From contig JAFCMP010000009.1 of NCBI GenBank assembly GCA_017506865.1, positions 124,001 to 188,000 of the forward strand: DNA of 64,000 nucleotides, in the 5' to 3' direction. A model generated the notes under the pieces. The model was not told where the DNA came from and did no database searches. It worked only from the letters and a program-made list of their open reading frames with translations. Shown in pieces: positions 35,627 through 53,115 of the stretch. A program made the position numbers and the translations under genes. This DNA comes from Tribonema minus (lineage: Eukaryota; Sar; Xanthophyceae; Tribonematales; Tribonemataceae). The first letter of the stretch is position 1. Each line of letters opens with the position of its first letter.

Positions 35627-37237
35627 CGCGACCCTCGTGTCTCCGCCGTGTTTTTTTTATGAGCAAAATTTTTGGGTGAAGTTTGTCCATATGGCGATGA
35701 CTTGCAGTTGAGTGAGACTGCGTTTCCAGGGCTAACAGAGGCAGGAGGAGGCTGCATCCTCTACGTCGATGATTGCAAGAGTGTCGAGCAACTGCTGACG
35801 CTCCTTGTTGCATCGCATGGCAGCCCTGGCGGCGGATATGCCACTTCAAGACCGTCAATTAGCCTTCTGCGGCAGCTGGGCTAGCGTTCTTGCTGGCGCC
35901 TCTTACAGGCAGCAGATATTGGCAATGCTTCAGTTTTGCTGCAATTGAAGATTCACCAGCCTTGCAGAAGACGGCGTGTGCAGCAGCTCACAACTGGATG
36001 TTGCGGGGGCAGCGCGGCATCGCTCAAGGAGCTGACGGGGAGCTGCGGCTTTGATGCCAGGGAGGATATCAAGCGCTGGCAATCATGAAAGAGGATAAGA
36101 TGGCACATGAGCATGCCACTGCGCTGTGGAAGCTGCTGCGCAGTGAGGTGCTCCTGCTGGAGGCGCAGCCAACGAAGGAGGACCTGGTGCTGTCACAGGA
36201 GCTGGACTGGAAGTGTTGTGGGCCTGCATTGACGTCTCAGGCGAGCTGTTGCATTCTGATCAACCACAAGCGAGCAAGCGCGATTGCAGCATAGTGGCAT
36301 GCTCTTCTGGCGCGTGCCATGATGCCTGTGCACCATTCCAGTCACTTGACAGCTCGCATGTGCTGCTCGTGACATGCCTGCGTGTCGCCGAGTAGTACTG
36401 GCACGTAGCTGGCAATAGTGAACCTGGGCCGCTCATGGAGCTGAGTGGCAGCACAAAACCTCTGCAGCGCCGTGTGAGCTGGCGTCAACGCAAACACACA
36501 TAACTATAGCGGCGGCGCGCACGCGTGCTGCCGTCCATGGAAGCTGGCGGCGGCGCGCATGTGTGCTTGGCTATTCACGGAGGCGGTGGTGTGCACTCAA
36601 TCTGCCACGTTAAGCAGCCAGCGAGAGTGACATAATCTTCACAGGTGATGCAACCTTGCTGCCGCCCATGGACGCAGGTGGCAATTGAATGCCATACTTT
36701 GCAGGTCATGTATTCTCAGGCTCAGCTGGTGGCGGTGATCACAATTGTTAAGCGTTGCTGCACATGCAGTACAGCTCGGTGCAATGCGCATCAGTGATGT
36801 GCCCATTCAACGTGAAGCCGGCGACATTGCGTCATGCGGCGGCGTGCACGCTCGCAGCGTCGCCCATTACATCTGGATGCTATGCGCACACGCATCGCTT
36901 GCAGGCACCGGGCAGCGGCGGGGGTACCCATGCACTTGGCGCAGCTTTTGGGTGTGTCAAAGCCTACCATGCTCGGTTCCTTGAGTAGGCGCTGCGTGGC
37001 GCGCAAATTTGTCTGCTTGGGGTGGCGGCACACTGGCTGCTGCGTTGCTTGGCTTGCTCTCGGGGTGCATGTTGGCTTGCAAAGGTGCAATTGCTATTGT
37101 GCAGCAAGTGCTGAGTTTGCAAAGCACGTTTTTATGATCAGAACCCATAATATGTGGACACCTGGTCTCTAAGCAACGGCGCGGGTATGCTACTGGTAAG
37201 GGGCCATGCATGGGGGGTTTAACTTTAAATTATTGCC
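35627..37237. other. Gap between NLR gene E and the retrotransposon
   Basis: About 1.6 kb with no recognised gene. Short frames here lack domains and conservation. Small duplications such as GCGGCGCGCACG(CG)TG followed by CCATGGAAGCTGGCGGCGGCGCGCATGTG (36510-36565) are present. Some of it should be the promoter of gene E, but no specific site can be identified. Confidence 0.5.
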
Positions 37238-37472
37238 TGTGGTGATTCTGTAGTATCACCAAGTGTTTGCACACAGTGCCCCAACAGGTCCATACCCCCA
37301 CCATGTCAGGTGTAACTTACGTTGAACTGCCAACTGCAAGTCTTGCGACCTGTGCTTTCAGAGCAAGGAAGCAAGCCTCTTAACACACACACTTTGGCTG
37401 AGTGGTGCTGTGCGTGTGAGTGCATTTGCTTTGCCTTGTTGTGGTGTTGTTTGCCATAGCAGCAGCACTTCA
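37238..37472 (+). repeat. 5' LTR (235 bp)
   Basis: Starts TGTGGTGATTCTGTAGTATC and ends CAGCAGCACTTCA, i.e. TG...CA. Compared with the 3' LTR it has an extra 11 bases within GTGTAACTTACGTTGAACTG. Promoter and polyadenylation signals would lie here; none is identified with confidence. Confidence 0.9.
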
Positions 37473-37531: not shown

Positions 37532-38941
37532 ATGTCAAGTTACACGAGCCACGGTCACGCGACGCGACGCAGGTCTGCTGTCCGGAGCTCGCCACTCCTT
37601 GGCAACGACGCCCTCCTGACAGTGTTAGCCGACCCAGCTCTCACTCGCCGTAAGGCACGTGGGGGCCGATCCGAGTCCCAACCGGCGGGCCATGCCGGCA
37701 AGGACTCCGCTGCTGCGGCACCGCCTGCAGCAGCCACCAGCCGCCTAGCGGAGCCGAGTGCCGCTGTATCTCCTGCTATGGCCCAGCAGGACGACAACAG
37801 CAGCGCCGGCTCCTGCAAGGGCGGCCCCGCGTCAGCGCCAGAGCCACTCTTCGACGGCACGTCAGAAGCTCAAGGCGGCGAGACGCCATCATCGTCTGCA
37901 CAACGGCGCCCCGGCATGGCCGCCAGGGGACCCAGCAGCGACCTATCTGTCCCACAGGGACAACAGAACGACCCGTATGGCGCCCTGGCGCTCTCTAGCG
38001 CCTGCAACAGCCCCTACCACGGCTCCGTCTCTTTGGGGAGAGGGGGTGTCATGGTGGATCTCACTCAGCAAGTCAAGTCTCTCCTGCAGGCGGACATCCC
38101 TGAGCCTATCCGCCGCTCCCTCAACCTCACCGAAGCAGCCGTTGAAGACCTCCAGGGGAAGTTTGTCGACTACGCTGCGCACGTCGCGGACATGCAAGCG
38201 GGCGCCTACCAGCAGCGCCGCGAGCAGCAGCGCCGCGACACGGACCTCTCCGACGCGCTCACCAGTGATCCGCAGGCACTGCAGACTCGTCTGGAGGAGG
38301 CAGAGCGGCGCGCCTTCGTGTGGGCTGACCGCGCCATAGCCGCGGACGAGCGCGTGGCGGCGGCCGACACGCACGCCGCCGCGCTGGAGTCGCGGCTGGT
38401 CGCAGAGGAGGCGCGCAACGCCGAGCGCGTGGCAGCGGCCGACACGCGCGCCGCCGCGCTGGAGTCGCGGGTGGTCGCAGAGGAGGCACGCAGCGCCGAC
38501 AACCTCAGGACGGTGATGGTCTACGTCAACCGCCTTGAGGCCAAGGTCGACAGCCTCCTCGACGACGCGGCCGCATCCTCTCAGCAGCGTCGCCAGCGCT
38601 CCTATACGCCCGGCTCTGCGTACCACTCGGTGCAGCAGATGCTGTCGGCGCCGCGCGCTGAGCTTAACGAGCTTAACCTTCGCACCTTCGGCGGCAGCGC
38701 CGTGCGCCGCGACGACGATGAGCGCTCGCGCATCAGCATGCACTCGTCGCGCTCGCTGTGCGCCCCACGCCGGCCATTCAGCTCCCCCCGCACCCTCGCT
38801 CCGTCTACGACCTGCCGACCTCCTCCGCCACCGCCACCGTCCGCGACACCTCCGCGCGTCCCCCTGTGCCCTCTTTCTCCTTCTCTCTCGCTCTACCCCT
38901 CGCAAAGGCATCTGCGCGTGAGAGCGACAAAGGCAGCCTGA
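37532..38941 (+). CDS. gag: Gag, N-terminal part (coiled-coil rich)
   Basis: ATG at 37532 is the first after the 5' LTR and primer site. The frame gives 469 codons: a Ser/Ala/Pro-rich start, then a long helical stretch with tandem AADTHAAALESR/VAEEAR-type heptad repeats (about residues 270-330) likely to form a coiled coil for particle assembly. Sense-looking sequence (ISMHSSRSLCAPR) ends near 38765 and then becomes Pro-rich nonsense-like. The natural continuation is in the -1 frame starting in the overlap at 38758. Either a frameshift mutation or a programmed shift could explain this. Confidence 0.7.
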   Translation: MSSYTSHGHATRRRSAVRSSPLLGNDALLTVLADPALTRRKARGGRSESQPAGHAGKDSAAAAPPAAATSRLAEPSAAVSPAMAQQDDNSSAGSCKGGPASAPEPLFDGTSEAQGGETPSSSAQRRPGMAARGPSSDLSVPQGQQNDPYGALALSSACNSPYHGSVSLGRGGVMVDLTQQVKSLLQADIPEPIRRSLNLTEAAVEDLQGKFVDYAAHVADMQAGAYQQRREQQRRDTDLSDALTSDPQALQTRLEEAERRAFVWADRAIAADERVAAADTHAAALESRLVAEEARNAERVAAADTRAAALESRVVAEEARSADNLRTVMVYVNRLEAKVDSLLDDAAASSQQRRQRSYTPGSAYHSVQQMLSAPRAELNELNLRTFGGSAVRRDDDERSRISMHSSRSLCAPRRPFSSPRTLAPSTTCRPPPPPPPSATPPRVPLCPLSPSLSLYPSQRHLRVRATKAA

Positions 38942-39288
38942 AGGATGAGGCGCGTGCGCAGCTGGACGGCGCTGTGCGCGAGGCCCGCGGCCAGCAGCTG
39001 TGGACACTCACACAGACGCAAGCGCGCACGGACCCCATGCAGCAGCTGGCGGCGGAGAGGGCCGAGCACGACACCAAGGTCGCAGCGACGGAGGCAGCGC
39101 TGCAACGCGAGCGGGAGCTCCTGCGCGTGGAGCGCGAGGAGGTGGAGCGCGTCAAGGCGGAGCTCGCGTTGAGCGTGGCCAGCCGGGACGGCGACGGCAG
39201 CGAGAGCGTCCGCAGCAGCGCGCCGAGCCGCCGTCGCGACGGCGGCGGCGGCGGCGGCAGCGGCGGCGGCGGCGGCGACGGCAGTGGC

Positions 39289-39319
<31 letters not shown>

Positions 39320-40695
39320 GCGGCGGCAACGGCAGTGGCGGCGGCGGCAGCACGGCCGCTAGCTCGAGCCACGGGGGAGGCAGCGGGCCCAGCGCCGGCG
39401 CGGCACCGGCGTCAGTACAGGCGCCAGCGCCAGCGCCAGCGGCGCAGCCGGAGTGGCCGGGGCGGCCTGCAAGCGTGCCCATCGAGGGCTGGTTTGACGA
39501 GCGCGGCTACGCCATTACGCGCGTCAGCGTGCAGGTCAAGGAGTCTGACCTGCCCAAGACCGCCATCGTCGGCATGTCCATGGTGCCGCTCGTCAACCTG
39601 CACAAGATGCTGCCCAGCCTCATCAGGGAGTTCGCGGACGACAAGCGGCAGAAGCAGCGCCCCATGTGGCCTGCTCTCATCAAGGACGACGACTTCGGCT
39701 CGAAGTGGTTCTCCTCTGTTGTCCGCACCGTCATCAACTGCATCATCAGCGGCGGCGGCGACAACTACCTGGTGAGCTCGCTGGCAGGGGAGGCGGCGGA
39801 GTGGCAGAAGGAGGGGGAGGCCCTCACAGTCTCGGACACGGAGCGGCTCGAGTGGTTCTTCACTCGCATCGCTAAGTTCTTGGAGCTGCGGCGTCCTGCG
39901 GAGCTTGCGACTGACCTCGTCATGTGGGTTGTCAAGCCCGGCTTCCCACTCAAGGACTTCGTGTACGAGTACTCTGCTGCCTCCACCGCTATTCTCTCCA
40001 CTGACCCCAAGCAGGACCTGTTCGTCTTGTCTGCGCTGCTGGAGGTCTGCCGCCAGCAATACGCCATCACTGCTCCGTCATGGACCCACATTGACGAGGA
40101 CCCGCACAAGCACACCACCCGCAACTTGCTGGAGATCCTGCGCCGCCAAGCTGAGCGCGCGAAGTACCAGGCGACGTCGCGCGAGGACAACCGCGCCGTC
40201 TACCCCAGGGACCTGCGCTCGTACAGCAAGGGCGTCATCAGCGGCGGCGGCAGCGGCTTGCCACCCAAGCAACAGCCGCAGCAACAGCAGCAACAGACGC
40301 CCAGCCTTGCCGAGAAGAACGCGAGGCGCGCGCAGGAGCTGCTTAAGCGCCAAGAGAACCAGATCAGCTTCATGGTCTACCAGATGAATGCCTTCAGCTC
40401 CAGCACCGGCCCCGCACGCACTTGCTTCAACTGCGGCAGCGACCAGCACGTCTTCGCGCGCTGCACTCAGCCCTACAGCGCGGCCAACTGGCAGGCGGCA
40501 GCTGAGAAGTTGCCGTGGGTTGCCAAGTTCCGCCCCTGCGGGGACGAGGACTTCAAGCGGCTGTGCGCAAAGGCGCTGGAGCGCGCAGCGAGCGGTGATC
40601 GCGGGCGGTCAGCTCAGGTGGTCTATGAGAACAGGCGGAGCGGCGGTGGGCGCGGGCGCGGCGGGCACGGCGGCGGCCGCGGCGGTGACCACTAG
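38758..40695 (+). CDS. gag: Gag, C-terminal part with CCHC zinc knuckle
   Basis: Frame overlapping the N-terminal gag part and ending in TAG at 40693. It has a coiled coil (AAERAEHDTKVAATEAALQR), a Gly/Ser low-complexity run from a GGC repeat (39240-39355), a capsid-like helical region (about 39480-40200; PMWPALIKDDDFGSKWF, RLEWFFTRIAKFLELR), and one zinc knuckle CFNCGSDQHVFARC (C-x2-C-x4-H-x4-C) near 40427. The C-terminus is RGGRGRG-like and probably binds RNA. Confidence 0.8.
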
Positions 40696-40738
40696 GGGTG
40701 TGACCCCGCGCCAGCCCTCGGCGCGGGGGAAACACTAG

Positions 40739-42061
40739 GGGGTACTGCTGCGGCTGGGGGCGGTAGTGACGCACCGGACGACAGTCAGCGCGCACGGCGC
40801 GCCAGCGGCGGACGCGGCAGCTGCGCACCAGCAGCCGCAGATGCCCACGCTTGTGGTAGCCGCTGCTATGCAGCAGCAGTCGCAAGCCACGGTGGACACA
40901 GCCTCGACTTCAGAGCCACCGCCCTCCGCTGCAGCTACTACGCAGCAGCAGCCCATCCCTGCAGTTGCTACGCAGCAGCAGCCCGTTGCTGCAGCTGCAC
41001 CGCAGCAGCAGCGGCTCCCCGCCCCTTCTGCGGCGCCTGCAGGCGGCGAGCTTAGGCCAGACGCCCCAACCTTTGTACCGGCGCCGTCTGCGGGGCCGGG
41101 GCGGCGCGCACGGCGACGCCGCGGCGCGCGCGAAGAAGGCCCCAAGGCGGCGGGTTTTCCGCTTGTGACCCCCTACTCCGCAGCGGCGTTTGCGCCGCGC
41201 GAGCCGGCCGCGCCTGCGCGCGGCACACCGGCGCGGCGTGTTTCTGCCACGCACAGCGCCGGCGCGGGGGGCACTCCAGACCAAGGGGGGGTGAAGGCTG
41301 GCTCAGCAGCTTCGCCAGCAGCGGACGCGACGGCGCAAGACGCGCCCTCTTCTCTTTCGCCTGCTTCTGCAGCGGCAGCGGCGCCTTCGGCGACGCCAGC
41401 TGCAGCGGACGCGGCGCACGCGCCGGCGACGGCGCCTACCCCTGCTGCTACGCCCGCGATGGCGCCTGCACCTTCGAGTGCTCCCATTCCAAGCGCTGCT
41501 ACTTCAACATCTGCAACCTCAACATACGCGCCAGACCCCCCTGCGCCCTCCCCTTCTAAGCACACGCGCGACGCCGCCGGCGCCACCTTCATCAAGGGCG
41601 CGATCGTGCTGTACGTCAAGGCAGGCGCCACGGACGGCGAGCGCGCCAAGATCCTCGCCATAGACGACCAGAACGGCGGCGAGCCCTCATACTCTATCAT
41701 GCTACTCAGCAACTGCCAAGAAGTCGACACCATCGCTTCTCGCCTGCGCCCATGCCCGCCAGCGACGGCGGCAGCGGCGCCGCCAACTTCTGCATCTACG
41801 CCTGCCCCTCCGCCGGCGCCAGCGGCGCGCACGCCGCTCGGCACCTTCGCCAACACAGCGCCGGAGCGCGTTCAGTGGGCGGACCTCAAGCAGTGCGCGG
41901 CGGCGCGCCTGGCGCAGATAGAGGAGGTTCAAGCAAGGTCGCGCTTGCACTTGCAGGGCGCCTTCGAGGATGGCATTTGGGGCAGCATGCTGACGCCAAC
42001 GCTGCAGCACAGCGAGGCGACGGACATGGCAGAGATTGCTGAGGGGAGCATGGACAATTAG
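40739..42061 (+). CDS. Ala/Pro/Gln-rich ORF with SH3/Tudor-like stretch
   Basis: The frame is open between a TAG at 40736 and a TAG at 42059 and has no obvious ATG near its start, so it may depend on readthrough or frameshift from gag. About 270 residues of Gln/Ala/Pro low complexity precede a globular part, FIKGAIVLYVKAGATDGERA...GEPSYSIMLL...DTIASRLRPCPP, which has the spacing of a small Tudor/SH3-like barrel often seen in algal and protist retroelement proteins. Its role is unknown. Confidence 0.55.
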   Translation, partial: GVLLRLGAVVTHRTTVSAHGAPAADAAAAHQQPQMPTLVVAAAMQQQSQATVDTASTSEPPPSAAATTQQQPIPAVATQQQPVAAAAPQQQRLPAPSAAPAGGELRPDAPTFVPAPSAGPGRRARRRRGAREEGPKAAGFPLVTPYSAAAFAPREPAAPARGTPARRVSATHSAGAGGTPDQGGVKAGSAASPAADATAQDAPSSLSPASAAAAAPSATPAAADAAHAPATAPTPAATPAMAPAPSSAPIPSAATSTSATSTYAPDPPAPSPSKHTRDAAGATFIKGAIVLYVKAGATDGERAKILAIDDQNGGEPSYSIMLLSNCQEVDTIASRLRPCPPATAAAAPPTSASTPAPPPAPAARTPLGTFANTAPERVQWADLKQCAAARLAQIEEVQARSRLHLQGAFEDGIWGSMLTPTLQHSEATDMAEIAEGSMDN

Positions 42062-42079
42062 GGGCGCGATGCGGAGGAG

Positions 42080-44330
42080 GTGGACGCGCAGCGAGTCGCG
42101 GCGTACGTGGAGGACCTCATTGCGGCGCTCTACACACCGGAGAGCCGCGTGCGCAGCGGCGGCACCGACGCGCGCGACAGCGCTATCATGGCGCACTACC
42201 GCGAGGTCGCAGCGCTGGAGGCGCAGCTTCTCCCCGTTGCACAACAGGCTGAGGCAAGTAAGTTGCGTGGCTCAATACACGCGGACTTGTTCTCCCTATT
42301 TAAGTGCAGACTGCGCTCCTCACGCGCCAAGCGTTTTGCCTTCCTCAAGCGCGCACTGTGGGACTCCGGCGCCTCTGTTACAGCCATCTCGCAGAGTTGC
42401 TATGACCGCCTGGTAGCCAAGGGCGCTATTGACAGCGACGATGTGCGCAGGTTGTCAGCACCACGCAGCGTAGGGGGCATAGACACTAGCGCCGCTCCAC
42501 AGAAGGTCACAACCCTGGTAGCATTGCACTTTGATGCTGCTGGCCCCGCTGGCCTTTCTGCTCCAGTCATGGCGTTAGTCGTGCCGCGCTTGCCATACAA
42601 TCTCATCTTAGGGCGTGATTTCATCAACCGTCACGCATGGACGGCTTCCAATACACCCCTTTTCGGCAAAGATGTAGACCCCAACAATCCCCCTTCGCCC
42701 GGTGTTACAGCCCCCGGCAGCACTGAGTATAAGTTTGCCGGCACGCCATCGCCTTCGCAGCCTCCGCAGTCAAGCAGCGATCCACCCGCGCCTCCCGTTT
42801 TCGTGTACGGCAAAGACCAGAACTGGGTTGCAGTCGTGCGCGTAGCTGCCCAATCGCCAGAGACCCCTGCAGATTCCACAGCCCCAGTTTGGATCCAAAT
42901 CATGGAAGCAGACGGCATTACGCCAGTGCAAGCGCATTGCGAGCAGCTAGTGCAAGTCATACTGGCCCCAGCCCACAGCGCCACCATAGCTAGCACAGAG
43001 CTTGCCACCGGCGTCCATGCCAAACCTGTGCTTCTGCAGCGGCGCGCCAACACGTCGCTCGACTTGCCACGCGGCACCGTGCTTGGCAAGACCATGCCGC
43101 TGCATTGCGCCGCGCCTGAGGATCTGCACCGTGAGTACACGGCGCGCCCACGCGCCGTGGAGGTCTACTGCGGCGTCGGCGGCCTGGCAGAGGGCCTACG
43201 GGGCTGCATGGACATCAAGCTTGCAGTCGACTGCGAGCAGCGCGCCCTCGACGTCTACAGCGCCAACCACCCCGACACGCGGAAGCTGCAGCGCGACATG
43301 ACGCTGCCTGCAACACGCGCCGAGATCATCGCCGAGATGCTGCGCTTGCAGGCGCAAGCGCTCGTCGGCGGCCCGCCATGCACGCGCTTCTCACTCTCCG
43401 GCACGCGGCAAACTGCGCTTGGCATACCGCACCTCTACTACATGCTGGAGGTCGCCATGGGCGCCAGCTGCCTCCGCATGCTCATGTTTGAGAATGTGCC
43501 CGGGCTGCAGAGCGCGCCGGAACTCGCAGAGTTCTTGCGCTGCGCTCACCACGGCGGCTTCACCTTGCAAGAGAAGCTGTACGTGCGCGGCGACGACGCG
43601 CACTTGGCGCAGACACGGCACCGCGTCTTCTACATTCTGGCGCGCCCTGGCGACGGTGAACGCGACGCGGCACGCTTGCGCGCTTCATTGGCACAGGCGC
43701 GCGAGCTGCTCGCGTTCGCTAAGGCGGGCGCGGCGTACGAGACCGTGCGCGAAGCAACAGGGGACGTCTTGGACAGCGCAGGACAGCGGCGGCAGTACTT
43801 CACCACGGTCGGCCGCAACCGCGCCGCCAAGCAGGTTTACAGCATGGACGGCCCCGCCCCCACCACGCGCGGCAGCACGTACCGCCGCGACCCCACGCCA
43901 ACCGGCGTGCAGTCCATCATGCGCCCCTGCGACGCCACTCAAGACCCCGCCGAGTTTGCGCGCTCTGAGCACCTACCATGGTCAGCGCTGCGTGCAGTGC
44001 ACAGCTTCCCTGCCTCGTATCAGTGGAGCGCGCCAGAGCCTGGCGACACCACTGCGTATGCACAATACCTTGCAAACGCAGTGGCACCGCGCATGGCGGA
44101 GCTAGTCGGCGACATCCTGCAGCAGAGTGGTCTCTTGCATGAGATCACTGAGCAGTCGTCGCGACCGCTGCCGCCGGCCATCCAGACGCTCACCAACACA
44201 GGCACGCATACCACCTTCGGCACGTACGGCGTCAAGCTCGCAAACGAAGCACTGCAGCGCATGCGCGAGGCGGCGGCGCCCGCGGCGGAGTCCTGCAACG
44301 ACGGCGAGGCGCGCGCACAACTGCGGCAAC
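42080..44330 (+). CDS. Retropepsin fused to C5-cytosine DNA methyltransferase
   Basis: One frame, in phase with the preceding ORF but separated from it by TAG 42059. Residues counted from 42080. Retropepsin: LWDSGASVTAIS near 93-104 and LILGRDFI near 174-181. From about residue 355 a methyltransferase has the family motifs in order: I EVYCGVGGLAEG (from Glu361), IV GGPPCTRFS with catalytic Cys434, VI MFENVPG (Glu471-Asn-Val), VIII QTRHR (511-515), a target-recognition-like region, IX-like LRAVHSFPASYQW, and X ANAVAP (665-670). This is a full catalytic set, about 335 residues, and would transfer methyl groups from S-adenosylmethionine to cytosine C5. After about 44250-44330 the frame turns into Leu/Arg-rich sequence while an Ala/Pro/Thr-rich linker continues in another frame, so a shift occurs there; the frame formally stays open to 44710. 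Confidence 0.88.
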
Positions 44331-44651
44331 TACAACTGCAACTTCAACTGCCCCGCGCGGCGCGGCCCCTGCCGCGCATGCGCGCTCTACGGCTACACCA
44401 ACTGGCGCCGCGGCCCACGCTGCGGCCCACGCTGCGACCACGCCAACACCTGCACCACCACCGGCTACGCCTGCCGCGGCTCCTGCCGCAGCGGCGCGCG
44501 ACTCTACACCCACTGCGCGTCCGGCTGGCATGCACGCTGCGGCCCCTGCCGCGGCGGCGCCACCTGCGTGCGCGCCGCACGACTCATCCCCGCGCCAGCA
44601 CGCTGCGACGTTCGCAGCGGCGACTCCAAACCCTTTTACAAGGGGGGGTGA

Positions 44652-45885
44652 AAGTGGCAGCGACGCGTTTTGTTCGGCTGCGACATTTTCGCGCTGGACA
44701 TGCGCACTGACGTGTGGAGCAGCGCCAGCGTCGTGGCAGCAGAAGCGCGTGCCGATCATGGCGGCGTTGATGCCGACGCGGCAGCACCAATGGACGCAGC
44801 GGCTGTTTGCGAGGCGCTACAGCAGCAGCTGGGTGAGTCAGTCTCATTTGATCAGTCTCAAGAGGGAGCTAAAGTTCACATACCTGAAAGTGGCGGCGTT
44901 GCTTTAGGGACCTATCAGCACAAGGACCCTTCAGTTAAGAAAGCACTTGAAGAGGCTCGCAAAGTTCTGCCTGCACACATGCTTGCAGTTCGCGTAGACC
45001 TCGAGGGCTGGTCAGCAGACCAAGTGGGTAGGCTGTGCTTCATGTTTGCAGACTTAGCAAACAAAACCTTCTCAACAGATAAGTGGGATGTTGGGTTCTG
45101 CGATACCCTGCCTTTCCGCTTAGATCTCAAAGAAGGAGCCACGCCTTGCCAAGACCGGCCCTACAGGTACTCCCCCGCGTTGACAGCGCTGATCAAAGTG
45201 GAGATTGACAAGCTGCTTGCTGCTGGCATAATCCGCCCTTCGCTGTCCAACTGGGCTTCCCCTGTAGTTGCAGTGCTCAAGCCAGACGGCACAGCGCGCA
45301 TTACAGTCAATTACAAGAAGCTGAACGCCCAGACCATAGTGCCGCAGATACCCATACCAAACATCGAGGACTTGCTCAACAGCCTTGGTGGGGCGTCTGT
45401 TTTCAGCACTATGGACATCACTAGCGGATACTTCACCTCTTCCATCAGCCCCGACGCCATCCCCCTCACCGCCATGGTGACCTCGTTCGGCCTCTACGAG
45501 TGGTTACGTTGCCCCCAAGGCAGCGCCGGTGCTCCTGGCCATTTCACACGGCTCATGCAGACAGTACTTGCAGGTCTCAGCCGCGTGCAGCCCTACATTG
45601 ACAATGTTATAGTGTCCAGCACATCCATTGATCAGCACCTTGATGATCTTAAGGGTGTCTTTGCCCGCTTTCAGACACATGGCATGAAGCTGGCCCCCGC
45701 CAAACTGCATGTAGGGTGCAAGCACGTCAAGTTTCTGGGCCACATTGTCGGCGTAGATGGCATCAGGCCTGATCCTTCTAAAGTTCAAGCCCTGGTAGAA
45801 ATGCCTGAGCCCAGCAACCTCTCGCAGCTGCGCGCGTGGCTAGGCCTCGCCAACTACTATCGCCGCCAACTACTATCGCCGCTTT
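44652..45885 (+). CDS. pol: Reverse transcriptase (YIDN active site), frameshifted at 3' end
   Basis: Ty3-type RT palm and fingers: TPCQDRPYRYSPALTALIK, IRPSLSNWASPVVAVLKPDG, ARITVNYKKLN, FSTMDITSGYF (first catalytic Asp), then PYIDNVIV at 45594-45605. There the family has YxDD, but the last Asp codon is AAT (Asn). KFLGHIVGVDGIRPDP and LRAWLGLANYYR follow. A 16-bp tandem duplication (45851-45866 and 45867-45882) throws the frame just before the connection to RNase H. The extreme N-terminus before about 44670 is uncertain because low-complexity frames overlap. Confidence 0.88.
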
Positions 45886-46956
45886 GTGCGCGGCATGGCT
45901 CAGCTTGTAGCCCCTCTCACCGCTCTAATGGCGAAAGGCTTGGAGTTCAACATCAGCAGCGATCAGCGGCGCGCCATGCGCGCTGTCAACGAGGCGTTGG
46001 CGCTGCACACCGTCATGCGCTACCCTGACTACGCTGCTGCCGCCAGCGGCGCGCGCCCCTTCATCCTCGCCACCGACGCCTGCAAGGAGGGCTTCGGCGC
46101 TGTGCTGTCACAGGCTGACGCCGACGGCGTTGAGCAACCCATTGCCTTCACCTCGCGCGCGACGCTACCCAACGAGCGCAACTGGTCTACCACGGACTTG
46201 GAGGCTGGCGCGATCGTCAACGGCATCAAGAAGTTCCGCCACATGTTGTGGGGTACGCCTTTCACGCTCCTCACCGACCACCGCGCCTTGCAGTACATGG
46301 ATTCCATCCGTGAGCGCACCGCGCGCGGCGGGCGCTGGGCCGAATTCCTCTCCGCCTTCGACATCACCGTTGCCTACAAGAAGGGTGCCGATCACGGCAA
46401 CGCCGATGGCCCGAGCCGCAACCCCCTTCCTGCCACCGCTGAGGACGCCGCCGAGGCGTCGCGAGAGCGGCTCCTACACGCCTACGGCCTGGAGGCCGGG
46501 GACGCGCACCGCTTGGAAGCGCTCGCCACCGGCGAGTACTTTCAGATCTGCATGCTCATCACAGACGCAATGCGTGGCGGCGGCGTGGACGAGCTGCTTG
46601 CCGTGCAGGAGGCAGAGGGCTCATCACCTGCGGCTTGCGACGCTTTCGCTGAGCATGAGGAGCTCGGCCGGCTCACGCCTGGCGACTGGCAGCGCGAGCA
46701 GCGCGACGACCCACAAATTGGCGCGCTGTACGTCTACGTCGCCGACGGCACGCTGCCAGCTGATGCAGCACTTGCATCTCAGGTGAAACTGTGGGCAGGC
46801 GTCTTCCGCGCTACACCCCTACGGCAATTGCCAGCTTTTAGTGCGCTTGCCTCCGGAGAACCCACACTCCGCGCAGATTGTAGTGCCCCGCTCGTTGCGC
46901 GCTCTGGTCATGGACGCTTTTCACGGCAGCACTTGGTCAGGTCATCAGGGCATTAA
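45886..46956 (+). CDS. pol: RNase H domain and linker to integrase
   Basis: Continues the polyprotein after the 16-bp duplication: RGMAQLVAPLTALM, ILATDACKEGFGAVLSQ (catalytic Asp), NWSTTDLEAGAIV, FTLLTDHRALQYM and ADGPSRNP are the usual Ty3 RNase H signatures. Coding sense runs to about 46830, after which integrase continues in another frame. Removal of the RNA strand during cDNA synthesis is the family role. Confidence 0.85.
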   Translation: MRGMAQLVAPLTALMAKGLEFNISSDQRRAMRAVNEALALHTVMRYPDYAAAASGARPFILATDACKEGFGAVLSQADADGVEQPIAFTSRATLPNERNWSTTDLEAGAIVNGIKKFRHMLWGTPFTLLTDHRALQYMDSIRERTARGGRWAEFLSAFDITVAYKKGADHGNADGPSRNPLPATAEDAAEASRERLLHAYGLEAGDAHRLEALATGEYFQICMLITDAMRGGGVDELLAVQEAEGSSPAACDAFAEHEELGRLTPGDWQREQRDDPQIGALYVYVADGTLPADAALASQVKLWAGVFRATPLRQLPAFSALASGEPTLRADCSAPLVARSGHGRFSRQHLVRSSGH

Positions 46957-48469
46957 GCGCACTACTGAGCGTGTTCGTGCACAATGTTGGTGGCCTAGCT
47001 GGACGCGTACAGTTAGCTACTGGGTCAGCCACTGCTGGCCTTGCCAGGCATACAAGCGTACAGGCAAGCTCTCGCGCCACCCCCTAGTTTGGCGCGACAT
47101 GCCCCCTCACCCTTTCCACACCATTGCCATCGATCACTTCGGCCCCCTGCCCCTCAGTAGCAGCGGCCACAGCTACATCTGAATTGTAATGGACATGTAC
47201 AGCGGCTGGGTTTGGTGTTACCCTATCACAACAGACAACTTCAACTCTGTTGGCACAGCGCACATCCTAGTTGACCAACACAGCACGCTGCACGGAACTC
47301 CTGCCAAGCTCCTTAGTGATCGCGGTAGCATCTTCATGTCAGCTCTAGCACATGCTTTCTACTTGCAAATGGGCACTCGTAAGCTCAGCACTACGGCATA
47401 CCACCCCGAGTGCAATGGCAAGTGTGAGCGGTTCATGCAAGAGTTGGCGCAGATGCTTGCGATGTCAGTTAGACTAAGTGAAGGAGGCGGTGACTGGGTG
47501 CCACATGTGTCATTTGCACACAACACGTCGCACAACCGTGCAACTGGCGCCACCTCGTATTTGTTGGCCACTGGTCGCGAGGCTCACTACGCCTTACACC
47601 AGATCCTTGGTGAGCTTAAGCAGCCCCTTGCCCCTGCCGGTACCAGCCCCTCCGCATTAGAGTTGGTGCAAGAGCTCACGCAGCGCCAGCGTGCGGCGCA
47701 CGATGTCGCTTCTCAGCGGCACGCTCTGCGTCGCGCCCGTGTTCTGCGTGAGAACGAGGAGCTCGCGAACGCTTTTGGCTTGCGCACGCACTACAAGGTT
47801 GGCCAACGCGTGTGGTACTACCACGCGCCGCGCACGCACACGGCCATTACGGACGTGGATCTTGACCCCAAGTCGCCCAGGTTCAGTCAGGCACTGCGCA
47901 CGCTCTTCAGCAAGAAGATGCTTGACCGCTGGCAGGGCCCCTATCGGGTCCTGGCCGTCGGTCCCGGGACGTTTCAAGACCGGCCCGTGCAGGCAAACGT
48001 GCTTGTTGCAGAGCTTCCAGAGGGCCCCACGCGCATCACTCGCGCGCTCGTCAAGCACTGCCGCGACCCCACCCTGGCGACCAACGAGGGCCCACCGGGC
48101 GCGCTGCCCTCGGGCTTTGCCAAGTACCTCCTAGCAAAGCACTGGCGCGGCATGTCACCTGGCTCGCTTACGCTTGAAGACGCCAACCACGACGACGAGC
48201 GTCACGGCGTGGAGGCCATCCTACAACACCGCATCGCCGTGCAGGCGCGCGATCGTGGCCAGCGCCTCGAGTACCTTGTGCGCTGGGAGGGCGACGTCGC
48301 CAACTCGTGGGAGAGCGCCCTCAACATGGACGCATGCGCATCAGTGCTACGCGACTACTGGACGACGCAGAGCCGCGCCACCGAGCTGCGCGACGACCTG
48401 AAGATCCCCGGTGCGGGCACTGAGGTCGTGCGACGTGAGCTGCAGAAGGTCGAGAAGCGGCGTGGCTAG
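46841..48469 (+). CDS. pol: Integrase with chromodomain, in-frame TGA
   Basis: Zinc-binding HHCC region AFHGSTWSGH...HCWPCQAYK, then AIDHFGPL (first Asp), a TGA stop at 47180-47182, and the same frame continuing MDMYSGWVW, LLSDRGSIFM (second Asp) and YHPECNGKCERF (Glu of the DDE triad). After a basic region (KMLDRWQGPYRVLAV) the C-terminus (VEAILQHR...LEYLVRWEGDVANSWESALNM) is a chromodomain, which in chromoviruses guides integration to histone-marked chromatin. Stop TAG at 48467. Confidence 0.9.
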
Positions 48470-49129: not shown

Positions 49130-49353
49130 TGTGGTGATTCTGTAGTATCACCAAGTGTTTGCACACAGTGCCCCAACAGGTCCATACCCCCACCATGTCA
49201 GGTGTAACTGCCAACTGCAAGTCTTACGACCTGTGCTGTCAGAGCAAGGAAGCAAGCCTCTTAACACACACACTTTGGCTGAGTGGTGCTGTGTGTGTGA
49301 GTGCATTTGATTTGCCTTGTTGTGGTATTGTTTGCCATAGCAGCAGCACTTCA
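49130..49353 (+). repeat. 3' LTR (224 bp)
   Basis: TG...CA ends as in the 5' LTR; collinear except for the 11-bp indel and a handful of substitutions. Followed by the TGCC target duplication. Confidence 0.9.
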
Positions 49354-49674
49354 TGCCCGAATGTCAATTGCCCTAGAACTGAGCAGGATTTTGATCCTGT
49401 AAATACATTGACCACTTCTGTTGCATCAACTCTGAACAGTGCATTGTAAATGCCATGCAGTGCACATCTCAATTTTGTGCGCAAATGCTTCATACAGGCA
49501 TGGACTCTCACCATTTCGGACACATGTGGCATCAAAATATGGCAAACTGGTCCTGCTTTTGCACGATTCTGCAGCTGTGCCCTTGCAGCGGCCATCACAT
49601 GTGCTGTGCTGTATGTCTTTATGACGCTGCACACCAGACGCCGACAAATTTTAGGCCTGAAGCCGCGCTGCGCG
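49354..49674. other. Short stretch between two LTR elements
   Basis: 321 bases with no recognised gene or repeat. AT content is higher than in the flanking elements; probably pre-insertion host DNA. Confidence 0.5.
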
Positions 49675-49934
49675 TGTAGTGAGGCAACCCTAGGTGGAGC
49701 AGTAGTTGAAGTAGGACTTGCAGTGCGAATGCCTTTTTGTGCTTATAAGACACCTTACACCATGACCTCCTGACTGGACTTCTTTCCACTGCCTTGGCTG
49801 CTGGCATTGCTTCCATTTCATATGGGCTTGCACACAGTACACGGGCGTGTGGATCTGAGGTCTCAGGAGTGCTGAGGTGTGTAGTTTTGTAGCAGTAGAT
49901 CATACACAGCAGTGAGGAATCTCATGCTAAATAT
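49675..49934 (+). repeat. Left LTR of the 3.4-kb element
   Basis: Begins TGTAGTGAGGCAACCCTAGG and ends ...CTCATGCTAAATAT. A TGGCAGATCTCGGCAG string begins within its last base and could be a primer site, but this is weak. Confidence 0.75.
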
Positions 49935-49982
49935 GGCAGATCTCGGCAGTCCTTAACCGGCCAGGAGACGCGTTGGAAAGGA

Positions 49983-52262
49983 TTGTTAGCTTTCCGCTAT
50001 TTCCGTCGGCACCTCTGCTGCACGCAACCCACGAGATCCGGGCAGTCAGCAGCTGTAAGCGGCGATAGCAGAGATTTTCGAGATTTCAACAGCTGGGGGC
50101 GTGCTCTTCACAAGGCGCCCTTCGGCTCTCAACTAGCAGCGGCAGTAGCAGCTGCTCCAGCATACCGCCACCTTCCTGGTGGCACTTGCTCAACACCATC
50201 AGCAGCTCAGACACCTTTTGCTGGAAGCAAAATGGTGGGGGGGGGGCGTGCTATTGTGAGTCAGGCTGTAGCGCATGAGCTGCATGCCTGGTTGATCGAC
50301 GAGGGGCGTTGGGGCTGGCGCTGGTTTTACAGCAACTCCAGCAGCAACGATATGTCGGACAAGCTCGATGAGGTGCTCAGCGCTATGGACTACTTCTTCG
50401 CGGCTGAGGAGAAGCTGCTTCAGAAGCAAACCCGATCCAGGGCACGCCTTGATGAAGTCAGACAGGGAGTCGCTGAGGAGCAGCAGAGAGTTAGCATGCT
50501 GCAAGAGCGGCTGCAGCGAAGCAAGGAGGCGGAGGCAGCAGCGCAGCAGGCGGAGCTCAGCTTGCAGCAGCGTTTGGCAGGTGCGGAATTACGCTTGCAG
50601 TCGCAGGTTGCAGATGCGGCAGCGCAGGCAGCAGATCTGCAGGCGCGCATCAACAAGCTCAACAGGCAGAACACAGAGCTGCTCAATGAGGCCGAGGAGG
50701 CAGAGCTGCGGTGCTCCAATCAGATAGACCACTATGAAGACGTGCAGTATACGCTTGAGCTACGCATCAAGGAGCTGGAGTCATCAGCAGCAGGTATGCT
50801 AGTTCTGGAGCTACAACAACGACTTCAACGCGTGGAAGCAGAGAATGCACAGTTGCGTGCCGGAGCGGAGCATCCAGCAGCAGCTGCTCAAGGCACTTCA
50901 ACCTCCACTGCAAGTACGCAGACGGACAGCAGCTGCGAAGTACCCGCGGCAGCAAACATGGAGGCAGGCAGTGTGGTTGACGCTCCTCGCTTGCAGCAGT
51001 TGGAGCGGCAATGCGCTGCCGATTCAGCAGCGCTTTTGCAGCTGAGGAGACGGGTGTCGGAGCTGGAGGAGGATGCTGCGAGGAGCAGAGCGTGTGCAGA
51101 GGGGCTGCAACAGCGGCTGAGGACCGCTGATGCGCAGTGTGTGCACCTGCACATGGTGTGCGACGCGGGAGCGCGCGCAGGCGCTGCACTGCGTGAGCAA
51201 CTCGCATGCGCACAAGCAGCCAGCTTGGTGTCGGCATCTACTGGCGGCAGCGGCACTGACGCTCTCAACAGCGGCAGCGGCATCAGCTTCGGCACAGCGC
51301 CACGCTCACCAGTGGCTACAGTGCTGGCGTCGGCGCGTGCAGGCGACGACAGCGCGGACAACAACAGCTGCGCCAACAACAGCGGCGGCGCATGTGCCGC
51401 ACGCTCAGCGCCGACGGAGGCGCTTACAACATCGCAAGCATGCAGCAGTGGCGCGCTTGGCAGCAGCAGCACTGCAGCTGTGCTCTCAGCGCCGACAACG
51501 GCGGCGCATGCAGCTGTGCGCGCATGCGACATCGGCGGGCACAACAGCAGCGGCACCGCAGCCGCGCTTTCGGCACCGGCGACAGCGGCGCTTTCATCTC
51601 TGCGCGCACGCAGTGGCGCGCGTGACAGTGGCGGCACTGCGGCCCCGCTCCCAGCGCGCGGCGGCGGCAGTGGCGGTAGCGGCGGCGCGCGCGGCAACGG
51701 CGGCGGCGGCGGCAGCAGCGGCGCACGCGGCGGCGGTAGCGGCGGCGCGCGGGGTGGCAGCGGCGGCGCGCGAGGCGGCGGCGGCGGCGCACGCCACCAA
51801 AGCGGCGGCACGGGCGCAGCGAGCTTGCCGACGGCGACGGCAACGGTGCCGATGCAACAGCGCGTGGGCGTCAGCGCTGCGCGGTGGGGCGGCCGCTCTC
51901 ACGGCGGCAGCAGAAGTGGCGCGAGTACTGGGCGGCGCATACGCTTAAGGAGCAACAGCGCCTTCGTGACCAGCAGGCGCGTCACAAGGCGGCGCTCGGA
52001 TGGCGCACAAGCATGTGCGGGCGTGGCGCTGGCGCAGAGCCGCCAGTCACACCAGCAGCGGATGTGCGCAGCGGCGCACGCACAAGTGCAGCAGTGTCTT
52101 TCAGCAGCGATCAGGCTGTTCACAGCACGTATTGTGCTGATGTTTGTGAGACACAGATGGCAGCAGCTCTTTTGTGCGCCATGTGTCTTACCAGTGCATC
52201 TTGAGCGGTTTGGCTCATGGGGGCGCTTGTTTGCAGGTTCACTGTTGAGCCTGTACGTTTAG
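49983..52262 (+). CDS. Coiled-coil, Gly-rich ORF of the 3.4-kb element
   Basis: Open for about 759 codons; the first credible ATGs are near 50232 (MVGGGRAIV) and 50352 (MSDKLDEVL). From about residue 125 a long coiled coil (EEKLLQKQTRSRARLDEVRQ, LQARINKLNRQNTELLNEAE, LQQRLQRVEAENAQLRAG) runs about 270 residues. Then come Ala/Ser-rich repeats, a GGC-encoded Gly/Arg/Ala tract (51650-51800) and a basic Arg-rich C-terminus. A nucleic-acid-binding, self-associating gag-like protein would fit, but no capsid or zinc motif is seen. The Gly tract creates long Ala/Arg frames on other strands, which I ignore. Confidence 0.5.
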   Translation: MLAFRYFRRHLCCTQPTRSGQSAAVSGDSRDFRDFNSWGRALHKAPFGSQLAAAVAAAPAYRHLPGGTCSTPSAAQTPFAGSKMVGGGRAIVSQAVAHELHAWLIDEGRWGWRWFYSNSSSNDMSDKLDEVLSAMDYFFAAEEKLLQKQTRSRARLDEVRQGVAEEQQRVSMLQERLQRSKEAEAAAQQAELSLQQRLAGAELRLQSQVADAAAQAADLQARINKLNRQNTELLNEAEEAELRCSNQIDHYEDVQYTLELRIKELESSAAGMLVLELQQRLQRVEAENAQLRAGAEHPAAAAQGTSTSTASTQTDSSCEVPAAANMEAGSVVDAPRLQQLERQCAADSAALLQLRRRVSELEEDAARSRACAEGLQQRLRTADAQCVHLHMVCDAGARAGAALREQLACAQAASLVSASTGGSGTDALNSGSGISFGTAPRSPVATVLASARAGDDSADNNSCANNSGGACAARSAPTEALTTSQACSSGALGSSSTAAVLSAPTTAAHAAVRACDIGGHNSSGTAAALSAPATAALSSLRARSGARDSGGTAAPLPARGGGSGGSGGARGNGGGGGSSGARGGGSGGARGGSGGARGGGGGARHQSGGTGAASLPTATATVPMQQRVGVSAARWGGRSHGGSRSGASTGRRIRLRSNSAFVTSRRVTRRRSDGAQACAGVALAQSRQSHQQRMCAAAHAQVQQCLSAAIRLFTARIVLMFVRHRWQQLFCAPCVLPVHLERFGSWGRLFAGSLLSLYV

Positions 52263-52853
52263 ACACCACACCGCTTGCATACCATCAGCAGTGTAGTGTC
52301 TGGGGGCAATTGTCGTACAGGTCGAAACGCGTTGCATTGACCACCTGGGCGCACAAACCCACCCGCCCACCCTTTAGTTTTGTTTCAGTTGTACAAGCGC
52401 ACTTCTTTTGCGTGTGTTACACAAACGCTGGGGGAAATAAGTGCGCAGTGCCAACATGTCGGGGGCGTACATACTATAGTAGCTGTAGAATCATGGTGCA
52501 CTTGCTTGCGCACTTGCTTGCGTTGGTTGCGCAGTGCCAACATGTCGGGGGCGCATATAGCAGCGGAGCAAGTTGCTTGCTTTCAAGTTTGTTTGTTGCA
52601 GCGTTGGAATATTGTATTGTTTTGCAACAACGTAGTTGCCATTCCAGCCAGATGCACCACATTCTTTCTGAGACGTGTTGGTGGCGGAGGGTTGCTGGTA
52701 TATGCCCGTGTTATTTGAGAGTTTCGGCGGTCGCGGAGGACTGCTGCGCTTGCATTGCATTTCATAGCAGTATTGCATGTGTAGTATATAGGGCGCCTCA
52801 CATGAGTGCATGGCTTTCGACTTGGGGAGTGGAAGAGCCATGCAGGGGGCGAT

Positions 52854-53115
52854 TGTAGTGAGGCAACCCTAGGTGGAGCAGTAGTTGAAGTAGGGCTTGC
52901 AGTGCGAATGCCTTTTCGTGCTTGTAAGACACCTTACACCATGACCTCCTGACTGGACTTCTCTCCACTGCCTTGGCTGCTGGCATTGCTTCCATTTCAT
53001 ATGGGGTTGCACACAGTACACGCGTTTGTGGAACTGAGGTCTCAGGAGTGCTGAGGTGTGTAGTTCTGTAGCAGTAGATCATATACACAGCAGTGAGGAA
53101 ACTCATGCTAAATAT
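52854..53115 (+). repeat. Right LTR of the 3.4-kb element
   Basis: Direct copy of 49675-49934, roughly 95 percent identical by eye. Confidence 0.75.

Follow-up and report, generated by a model that had tools for sequence, protein, structure and literature searches.

The window, that is, the whole 64,000-nucleotide stretch of the Tribonema minus genome analysed here (contig JAFCMP010000009.1, positions 124,001 to 188,000), contains a long terminal repeat (LTR) retrotransposon of the Ty3/Gypsy chromovirus type, in the pol region of which a C5-cytosine DNA methyltransferase (MTase) domain lies between the protease and the reverse transcriptase (RT). The same domain recurs upstream of the same RT across the genome, is under purifying selection on its older branches and is found in five Ty3 lineages, for one of which three copies were read, all of them devoid of the catalytic motif. 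In window coordinates, the element is organised as follows:

37238-37472, plus strand: 5' LTR (TG...CA), 235 bp, with the target duplication TGCC just before it at 37234-37237
38722-40692, plus strand: gag frame, recognised by similarity to the gag of an open copy, with a zinc knuckle CX2CX4HX4C at 40423-40464
40693-40740, plus strand: UAG stop of gag followed by nested hairpins, a putative readthrough site
42062-44707, plus strand: open frame with protease and MTase, from the open-frame list
42356-42622, plus strand: retropepsin-like protease motifs LWDSGAS ... ILGRDF, by motif reading (PF13975 falls at the same place in another copy, L029, below cut-off)
43154-44104, plus strand: C5-cytosine DNA MTase domain with motifs I, IV, VI, VIII and X, by Pfam, motifs and a complete predicted fold
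45276-45749, plus strand: RT (PF00078), catalytic motif altered in the window copy, by Pfam and motif reading
46054-46359, plus strand: RNase H (PF17917), by Pfam
46883-47407, plus strand: integrase zinc-binding domain (PF17921) and partial core (PF00665, below cut-off), in two frames, by Pfam
48209-48361, plus strand: chromodomain (PF00385), by Pfam
49130-49353, plus strand: 3' LTR, 224 bp, with the target duplication TGCC just after it at 49354-49357

The direct LTRs are flanked on both sides by the same 4-bp duplication and differ by 5 mismatches over 224 aligned bases, with a single gap of 11 bp (Kimura two-parameter distance 0.023), such a repeat pair with its duplication having been read in the window copy only. 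The order protease, RT, RNase H and integrase, with the RT and RNase H models usual for Ty3 and the window protease recognised by motif (LWDSGAS at 42356-42376, ILGRDF at 42605-42622), is that of Ty3/Gypsy elements, and the chromodomain located 3' of the integrase is that of a chromovirus, with PF00385 scores of 25.8 bits in the window, 28.9 in copy L030 and 24.0 in L029 for a cut-off of 25.1.

The frame carrying both protease and MTase runs for 882 amino acids without a stop. PF00145 matches its residues 365-681 (profile 3-317 of 324, E 1.2e-16, 61.5 bits for a cut-off of 22), and motifs I (43157-43183), IV with GGPPC (43367-43393), VI with ENV (43487-43504), VIII (43610-43630) and X (44069-44095) follow each other in order, on a predicted two-lobed fold. 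Methyl transfer to cytosine in DNA is the likely activity predicted for a domain of this type. The first-pass annotation of this DNA had already placed retropepsin and MTase motifs in one open frame inside LTRs with a target duplication, which the motif reading, PF00145, the LTR pair and TGCC all confirm, and its catalytic Cys434 agrees with the Cys codon at 43379-43381 when numbered from 42080. That annotation also stressed that the MTase core is free of frameshifts amid polymerase lesions. As an observation this stands, the RT, RNase H, integrase and chromodomain 3' of the MTase being spread over several broken frames; its meaning does not, since, where pol changes frame about four times, one long unbroken protease-MTase stretch could have arisen by chance. 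The idea that selection spared the MTase alone in the window copy was dropped for this reason.

At least 119 matches to the window MTase and at least 150 to the window RT were found in the same 158-Mb genome. Once the 150 listed RT matches had been merged, 144 copies remained, of which 123 had an MTase-like match at most 6 kb upstream. For the lineage to which the window belongs the figures were 56 of 63 and 13 of 18, and for lineages further away 3 of 5 and 51 of 58. As this tally used most MTase rows of the window search, part of a search with the type V domains described below and three rows of the Pfam list, the 21 RT copies without MTase represent an upper figure; at least two of them (C31 and C515) begin less than 2 kb from a contig end. 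Merged over several searches, the MTase places number at least 323, of which 120 have frames of at least 2000 amino acids. This count leaves out four standalone or host-like genes, fragments beside counted rows, rows of lineages counted from their own search and one short type III fragment; element context was read at the named loci, the remaining places resting on the domain match. Among the open copies, L029 and L030 have single pol frames of 2758 and 2936 amino acids, respectively, with MTase, RT, RNase H, integrase and chromodomain. The protease model PF13975 reaches 18.9 bits in L029 (cut-off 28.2), at the place matching the window motifs, and is not flagged in L030. Besides, MTase pieces 53-87% identical to that of the window occur in JGI contigs (P0008, P0010, P0011 and P0015), so that close relatives of these elements exist in other public sequence sets.

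Selection on the MTase was estimated as dN/dS by the Nei-Gojobori method (NG86). The window against L029 gave 0.15, pairs with L030 gave 0.24-0.25 (dS above 1), and a comparison of two sublineages within subfamily A gave 0.08-0.10 at a dS of about 0.4, with 0.16 in one closer pair. In subfamily C, three pairs gave 0.10, 0.20 and 0.23, one recent pair gave 0.70 and two were not computable. Very recent pairs, separated by few changes, gave scattered values (about 0.1 to 2.3), which in subfamily B were mostly 0.4-0.6. The older MTase branches are therefore under purifying selection, the young ones being little informative. For the RT, the window against L029 gave 0.04, which indicates that the MTase is under weaker constraint than the RT. 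Taken together, these data bear on the possibility that a fragment of a host gene was caught once, in the window copy only. The decay of this copy outside the MTase would be in line with such a transduction, but we reject it, its probability being close to nil: tens of copies carry this domain ahead of the same RT, many of them with long open frames, and dN/dS is 0.08-0.25 between subfamilies and sublineages. The proposal that a Ty3 chromovirus encodes the MTase as a gene of its own is accordingly supported, and copies lacking the domain, which would have spoken for a one-off event, are not the rule.

Nor is the window element an isolated Ty3 case, as the first-pass annotation had presented it: the case is real, but the genome holds five lineages, named types I to V in this analysis, in which the domain occupies at least three different places in pol. 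In type I (the window and L029) the order is protease-MTase-RT. In type II (L016) the MTase (residues 984-1131) precedes the protease (1547-1630, below cut-off) and the RT (1974-2130), and in type III (L027; 11 places, one at 45% identity) the RT (262-423) and RNase H (515-631) come before the MTase (688-850), the integrase lying in the next frame. Types IV (L015, L024) and V (L051-L053) have the MTase upstream of the RT. The RT tree unites types IV and V (98/97) and joins type II to them (90/88), with type III on a very long branch for which the program flagged long-branch attraction; in the MTase tree, type I forms one group (100/99), types IV and V are united (91/76), as are types II to V (91/80), and type III stands with type II (82/50). 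Among eight representatives, type III being left out, RT and MTase distances agree (r 0.85, p 0.0002), which suggests, as the simplest reading, an old gain of the MTase and its inheritance with pol. Type III could owe its MTase to a later transfer of the domain, since its RT is far from those of the other lineages (19-28% identity) while its MTase is not farther (17-31%).

The catalytic motif is kept in some of these lineages and lost in others. Among the type I sequences of this genome in which motif IV is covered, the catalytic Cys is present in 28 out of 28 (one with PLC for PPC), down to 36-62% identity to the window. In type V, a direct scan with PF00145 gave 50.1, 42.0 and 22.3 bits, above the cut-off, so that an earlier description of this type as devoid of the Pfam methylase was dropped, and a profile of the other retroelement domains, built without type V, matched it at E 4e-40, 4e-38 and 9e-24. 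Motif IV fails there, however: L052 and L053 have STRC in place of PPC, and L051 has no motif IV. Besides, 28 type V matches start at query residue 101 or 105 and end at 321, the pattern expected of an L051-like deletion, which was read in L051 only. Type V frames nevertheless extend up to 3561 amino acids, and their MTase dN/dS is 0.16-0.21, with dS near saturation. In the same line, some type II domains have APC or SSC in motif IV and miss the Gln of motif VIII, and P0002, a 22.4-kb ENA contig, encodes a 2106-residue polyprotein with the architecture of the window element, chromodomain included, but with PPT for PPC and with ENV lost. This protein is 83% identical to L029 in its RT and only 38% in its catalytically degenerate MTase, the MTase thus evolving far faster than the RT. 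The catalytic motif is thus, to judge from these sequences, a later loss in some lineages, in which the domain was retained. One may then ask whether the main job of the domain is non-catalytic in all lineages, consisting in binding of nucleic acid or S-adenosylmethionine (SAM) or in a structural role within Pol. The constrained type V copies without PPC and the long open frame of P0002 speak for it, the catalytic Cys of all 28 type I sequences, across subfamilies, against it, and we regard it as unlikely.

Regarding the source of the enzyme, profile searches of solved structures rank DNMT2, a prophage enzyme and DNMT1 first, DNMT2 being the best only narrowly. A DNMT2-like methylation of RNA, either the genomic RNA of the element or its primer tRNA, would fit this first rank, though it appears quite improbable. 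As to descent, a DNMT2 origin of type I is rejected by the approximately unbiased (AU) test (p 0.029), and a DNMT2-like exon of the host (L012, 4815-5402, minus strand) forms a separate group with two solved DNMT2s. No DNMT3 appears among the 53 matches at E<=10 in the solved-structure library, which includes at least 29 DNMT3 sequences, and no BAH or RFD domain was found at E<=0.01 in the frames scanned (window and open copies). In a 75-sequence tree, including one DNMT1 and no CMT, 22 retroelement sequences lie on one side of a weakly supported branch (64/65) and are grouped with P0014 and P0016-P0018 at 84/87, four proteins taken from their form to be bacterial or phage. Type I is not sister to DNMT1 in this tree, and DNMT3A falls in another group, on a long branch; the AU test nonetheless retains a union of type I with either (p 0.44 and 0.22, respectively). 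With Foldseek, a phage enzyme comes out on top across both libraries searched (E 8.8e-21, query-normalised TM-score, TMq, 0.70); in a second structural comparison, DNMT3 is absent from the 50 entries listed, which excludes nothing.

A bacterial or phage-type source is favoured on the basis of this tree grouping and of the Foldseek result. Such enzymes (P0014, P0016-P0018 and BFVD A0A8S5PVD1) are the nearest non-retroelement sequences in the tree, share the NAV(P/A)P form of motif X and include the best Foldseek match, whereas they lie outside any retroelement polyprotein as far as listed and are only 22-30% identical. Phage records reach at best 24-31% identity among the 15 listed out of 35, and a viral-contig search gave 25 loci at 22-33% identity to type I, those placed in the tree not grouping with the retroelement sequences. 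Three standalone C5-MTases of 367-390 amino acids are also present (L009 4778-5947, L010 4698-5798 and L011 4420-5526, on contigs C223 and C181); they are closest to HhaI-type and phage families, motif X-like text precedes their last motif, and a ResIII helicase and DUF4379 repeats lie near L010. Their region is possibly an insertion of a large DNA virus.

The way in which the MTase would be produced is suggested by the gag-pol junction. In L029 and L030, UAG ends gag and pol continues in the same frame, which is why readthrough of this codon is envisaged. Nested stems stand 3' of the UAG in the window, L029 and L030, with different spelling and retained pairing, and the distant subfamily copy L022 offers, as judged by eye, another paired spelling. 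These sites (window 40693-40740, L029 1478-1520, L030 658-700, and L022) have stems that change in step between subfamilies. Seven out of nine further copies have the same TAGGGG at the beginning of this site, while the L084 and L089 pieces and L028 did not match the pattern searched. The UAG with its conserved hairpin is therefore a candidate readthrough signal, and under such readthrough Pol, and the MTase along with it, would account for only a small share of the particle.

We give about an even chance to the following reading, which is built from sequence comparisons. The MTase, which selection maintains in Pol, would have been acquired long ago from a bacterial or phage-type enzyme and then passed on with pol. 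It would be produced solely within the Gag-Pol fusion and enclosed in the particle, where it would be released by the protease or act within Pol, and it would methylate the double-stranded cDNA of the element before integration. The benefit, in its simplest form, would be that the incoming DNA resembles methylated host DNA or gains shielding from nucleases. In lineages without the catalytic motif, the domain would serve by binding cDNA. Several points weigh against this reading. The main doubt comes from the copies without the catalytic motif, whose long open frames imply that methylation is not essential to all copies. CpG decay, a possible footprint of self-methylation, is weak: transitions at CpG show only a slight excess (p 0.18 and 0.068; 0.037 after post hoc pooling), and no clear depletion of CpG is seen, the observed/expected ratio being 1.03 for the element itself, 0.90 for the remainder of the window and 0.67-1.01 across seven other loci. 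The weak union of the 22 retroelement sequences (64/65) and the surviving DNMT1 and DNMT3 placements (p 0.44 and 0.22) add to this, as does the inactivity in yeast of the Klebsormidium Gypsy domain, deemed inconclusive by its authors in the portion of PMC5890265 consulted.

The chromodomain offers another route, in that it could guide the MTase to chromatin at or near the insertion site, new copies being silenced or hidden and the host spared. A chromodomain is indeed present in the window, in open copies and in P0002, but its scores are marginal (25.8, 28.9 and 29.0 bits above and 24.0 below the cut-off of 25.1). Moreover, the scan detected none in the frames of types II and III that it covered, some of these loci ending before the frame does, and these lineages keep the MTase. 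Such a chromatin role seems rather unlikely to us. Cytosine methylation of the element's own cDNA remains the reading that we put forward.

Concerning the surroundings and the host, a second LTR element adjoins the first one at window positions 49670-53087, with 239-bp repeats of 95% identity and a 787-residue frame of coiled-coil appearance; as no RT match was found in this frame, the element looks non-autonomous. PF00504, searched across the genome, gave 92 matches, the majority in short pieces. For two host light-harvesting exons (L079 and L081), the antennae named ACPI, CAC and FCPI, which we take to belong to cryptophytes, haptophytes and diatoms, rank ahead of chlorophyll a-b binding names, and the host is on this ground likely a chlorophyll a/c alga; the chlorophyte suggested by the first-pass annotation is not supported. 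By summed domains, a polyprotein (9vfj) ranks first, an entry assigned to Euglena in the excerpt of PMC12577709. No host DNMT1 or DNMT3 was identified, in searches that could not exclude them.

Retroelement MTases have been described before. In the consulted parts of PMC5890265, the cases of 2018 come from dinoflagellates and one charophyte, with DNMT3 in Klebsormidium Gypsy and Symbiodinium DIRS elements and an orphan DNMT in LINEs. As excerpted, PMC12344493 catalogues orphan eukaryotic DNMTs together with known retroelement DNMTs, and PMC6338049 mentions Ty3 and DIRS elements that encode DAM and DCM, for stramenopiles, red and green algae and charophytes, the two enzymes not being separated there. 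The nearest known case is KnitGypsy-Dnmt3 of Klebsormidium nitens (PMC5890265, in part), with which the Tribonema elements share LTR Gypsy pol domains, a Pol frame that includes a cytosine MTase, presence in numerous copies and purifying selection (Ka/Ks below 0.2 there). By contrast, its MTase is a DNMT3 and it has DIRS-like repeats, whereas the window element has plain LTRs with a target duplication and no DNMT3 match at E<=10; among direct repeats of at least 60 bases in 34000-56000, only the LTR pair flanks the element, inverted repeats not having been searched. The Tribonema lineages further differ by at least three positions of the domain and by the absence of the catalytic motif from one of them in the copies read. 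They would thus represent a further case with an apparently different enzyme class. A capture separate from that in Klebsormidium, as the first-pass annotation proposed, is plausible because DNMT3 is absent from the 53 matches, yet the union with DNMT3 survives the AU test.

SymbioDIRS-Dnmt3 and SymbioLINE-Dnmt of dinoflagellates are similar in that they number hundreds of algal retroelement MTases, one class being CG-active in yeast, but belong to DIRS and LINE rather than Ty3 elements (PMC5890265, same parts). The three structural families of that paper are said, in the text consulted, to retain key residues, unlike the type V copies read and P0002. A Ty3/Gypsy RNA N6-methyladenosine (m6A) demethylase from orchids (PMC9289625, in part) likewise illustrates the gain of a nucleic-acid modifying domain by a Ty3 pol, with another enzyme in another host, and is titled as recent. 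No report of a non-DNMT3 C5-MTase in Ty3 elements, or of versions that lost catalysis, was found in open-access titles and abstract starts, a scope that leaves absence unproven.

A broader view may be proposed tentatively, although we lean against it: in this algal lineage, the C5-MTase fold would have belonged to the core of Ty3 pol since ancient times, derived from a bacterial or phage enzyme, inherited together with the RT and moved between at least three places of the polyprotein, and a large lineage would have turned it into a non-catalytic module of the particle, comparable, on the side of retroelements, to the inactive DNMT partner that exists in animals. The natural pairs of catalytic and catalysis-lost domains within one host would make it possible to test whether methylation is needed or only the protein fold. 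Transposons are normally silenced by cytosine methylation, so that elements bearing the enzyme themselves would turn the usual conflict around. This genome provides a further setting for it, with a seemingly different enzyme class, in five lineages of Ty3 elements that include long open frames and copies almost identical to one another.
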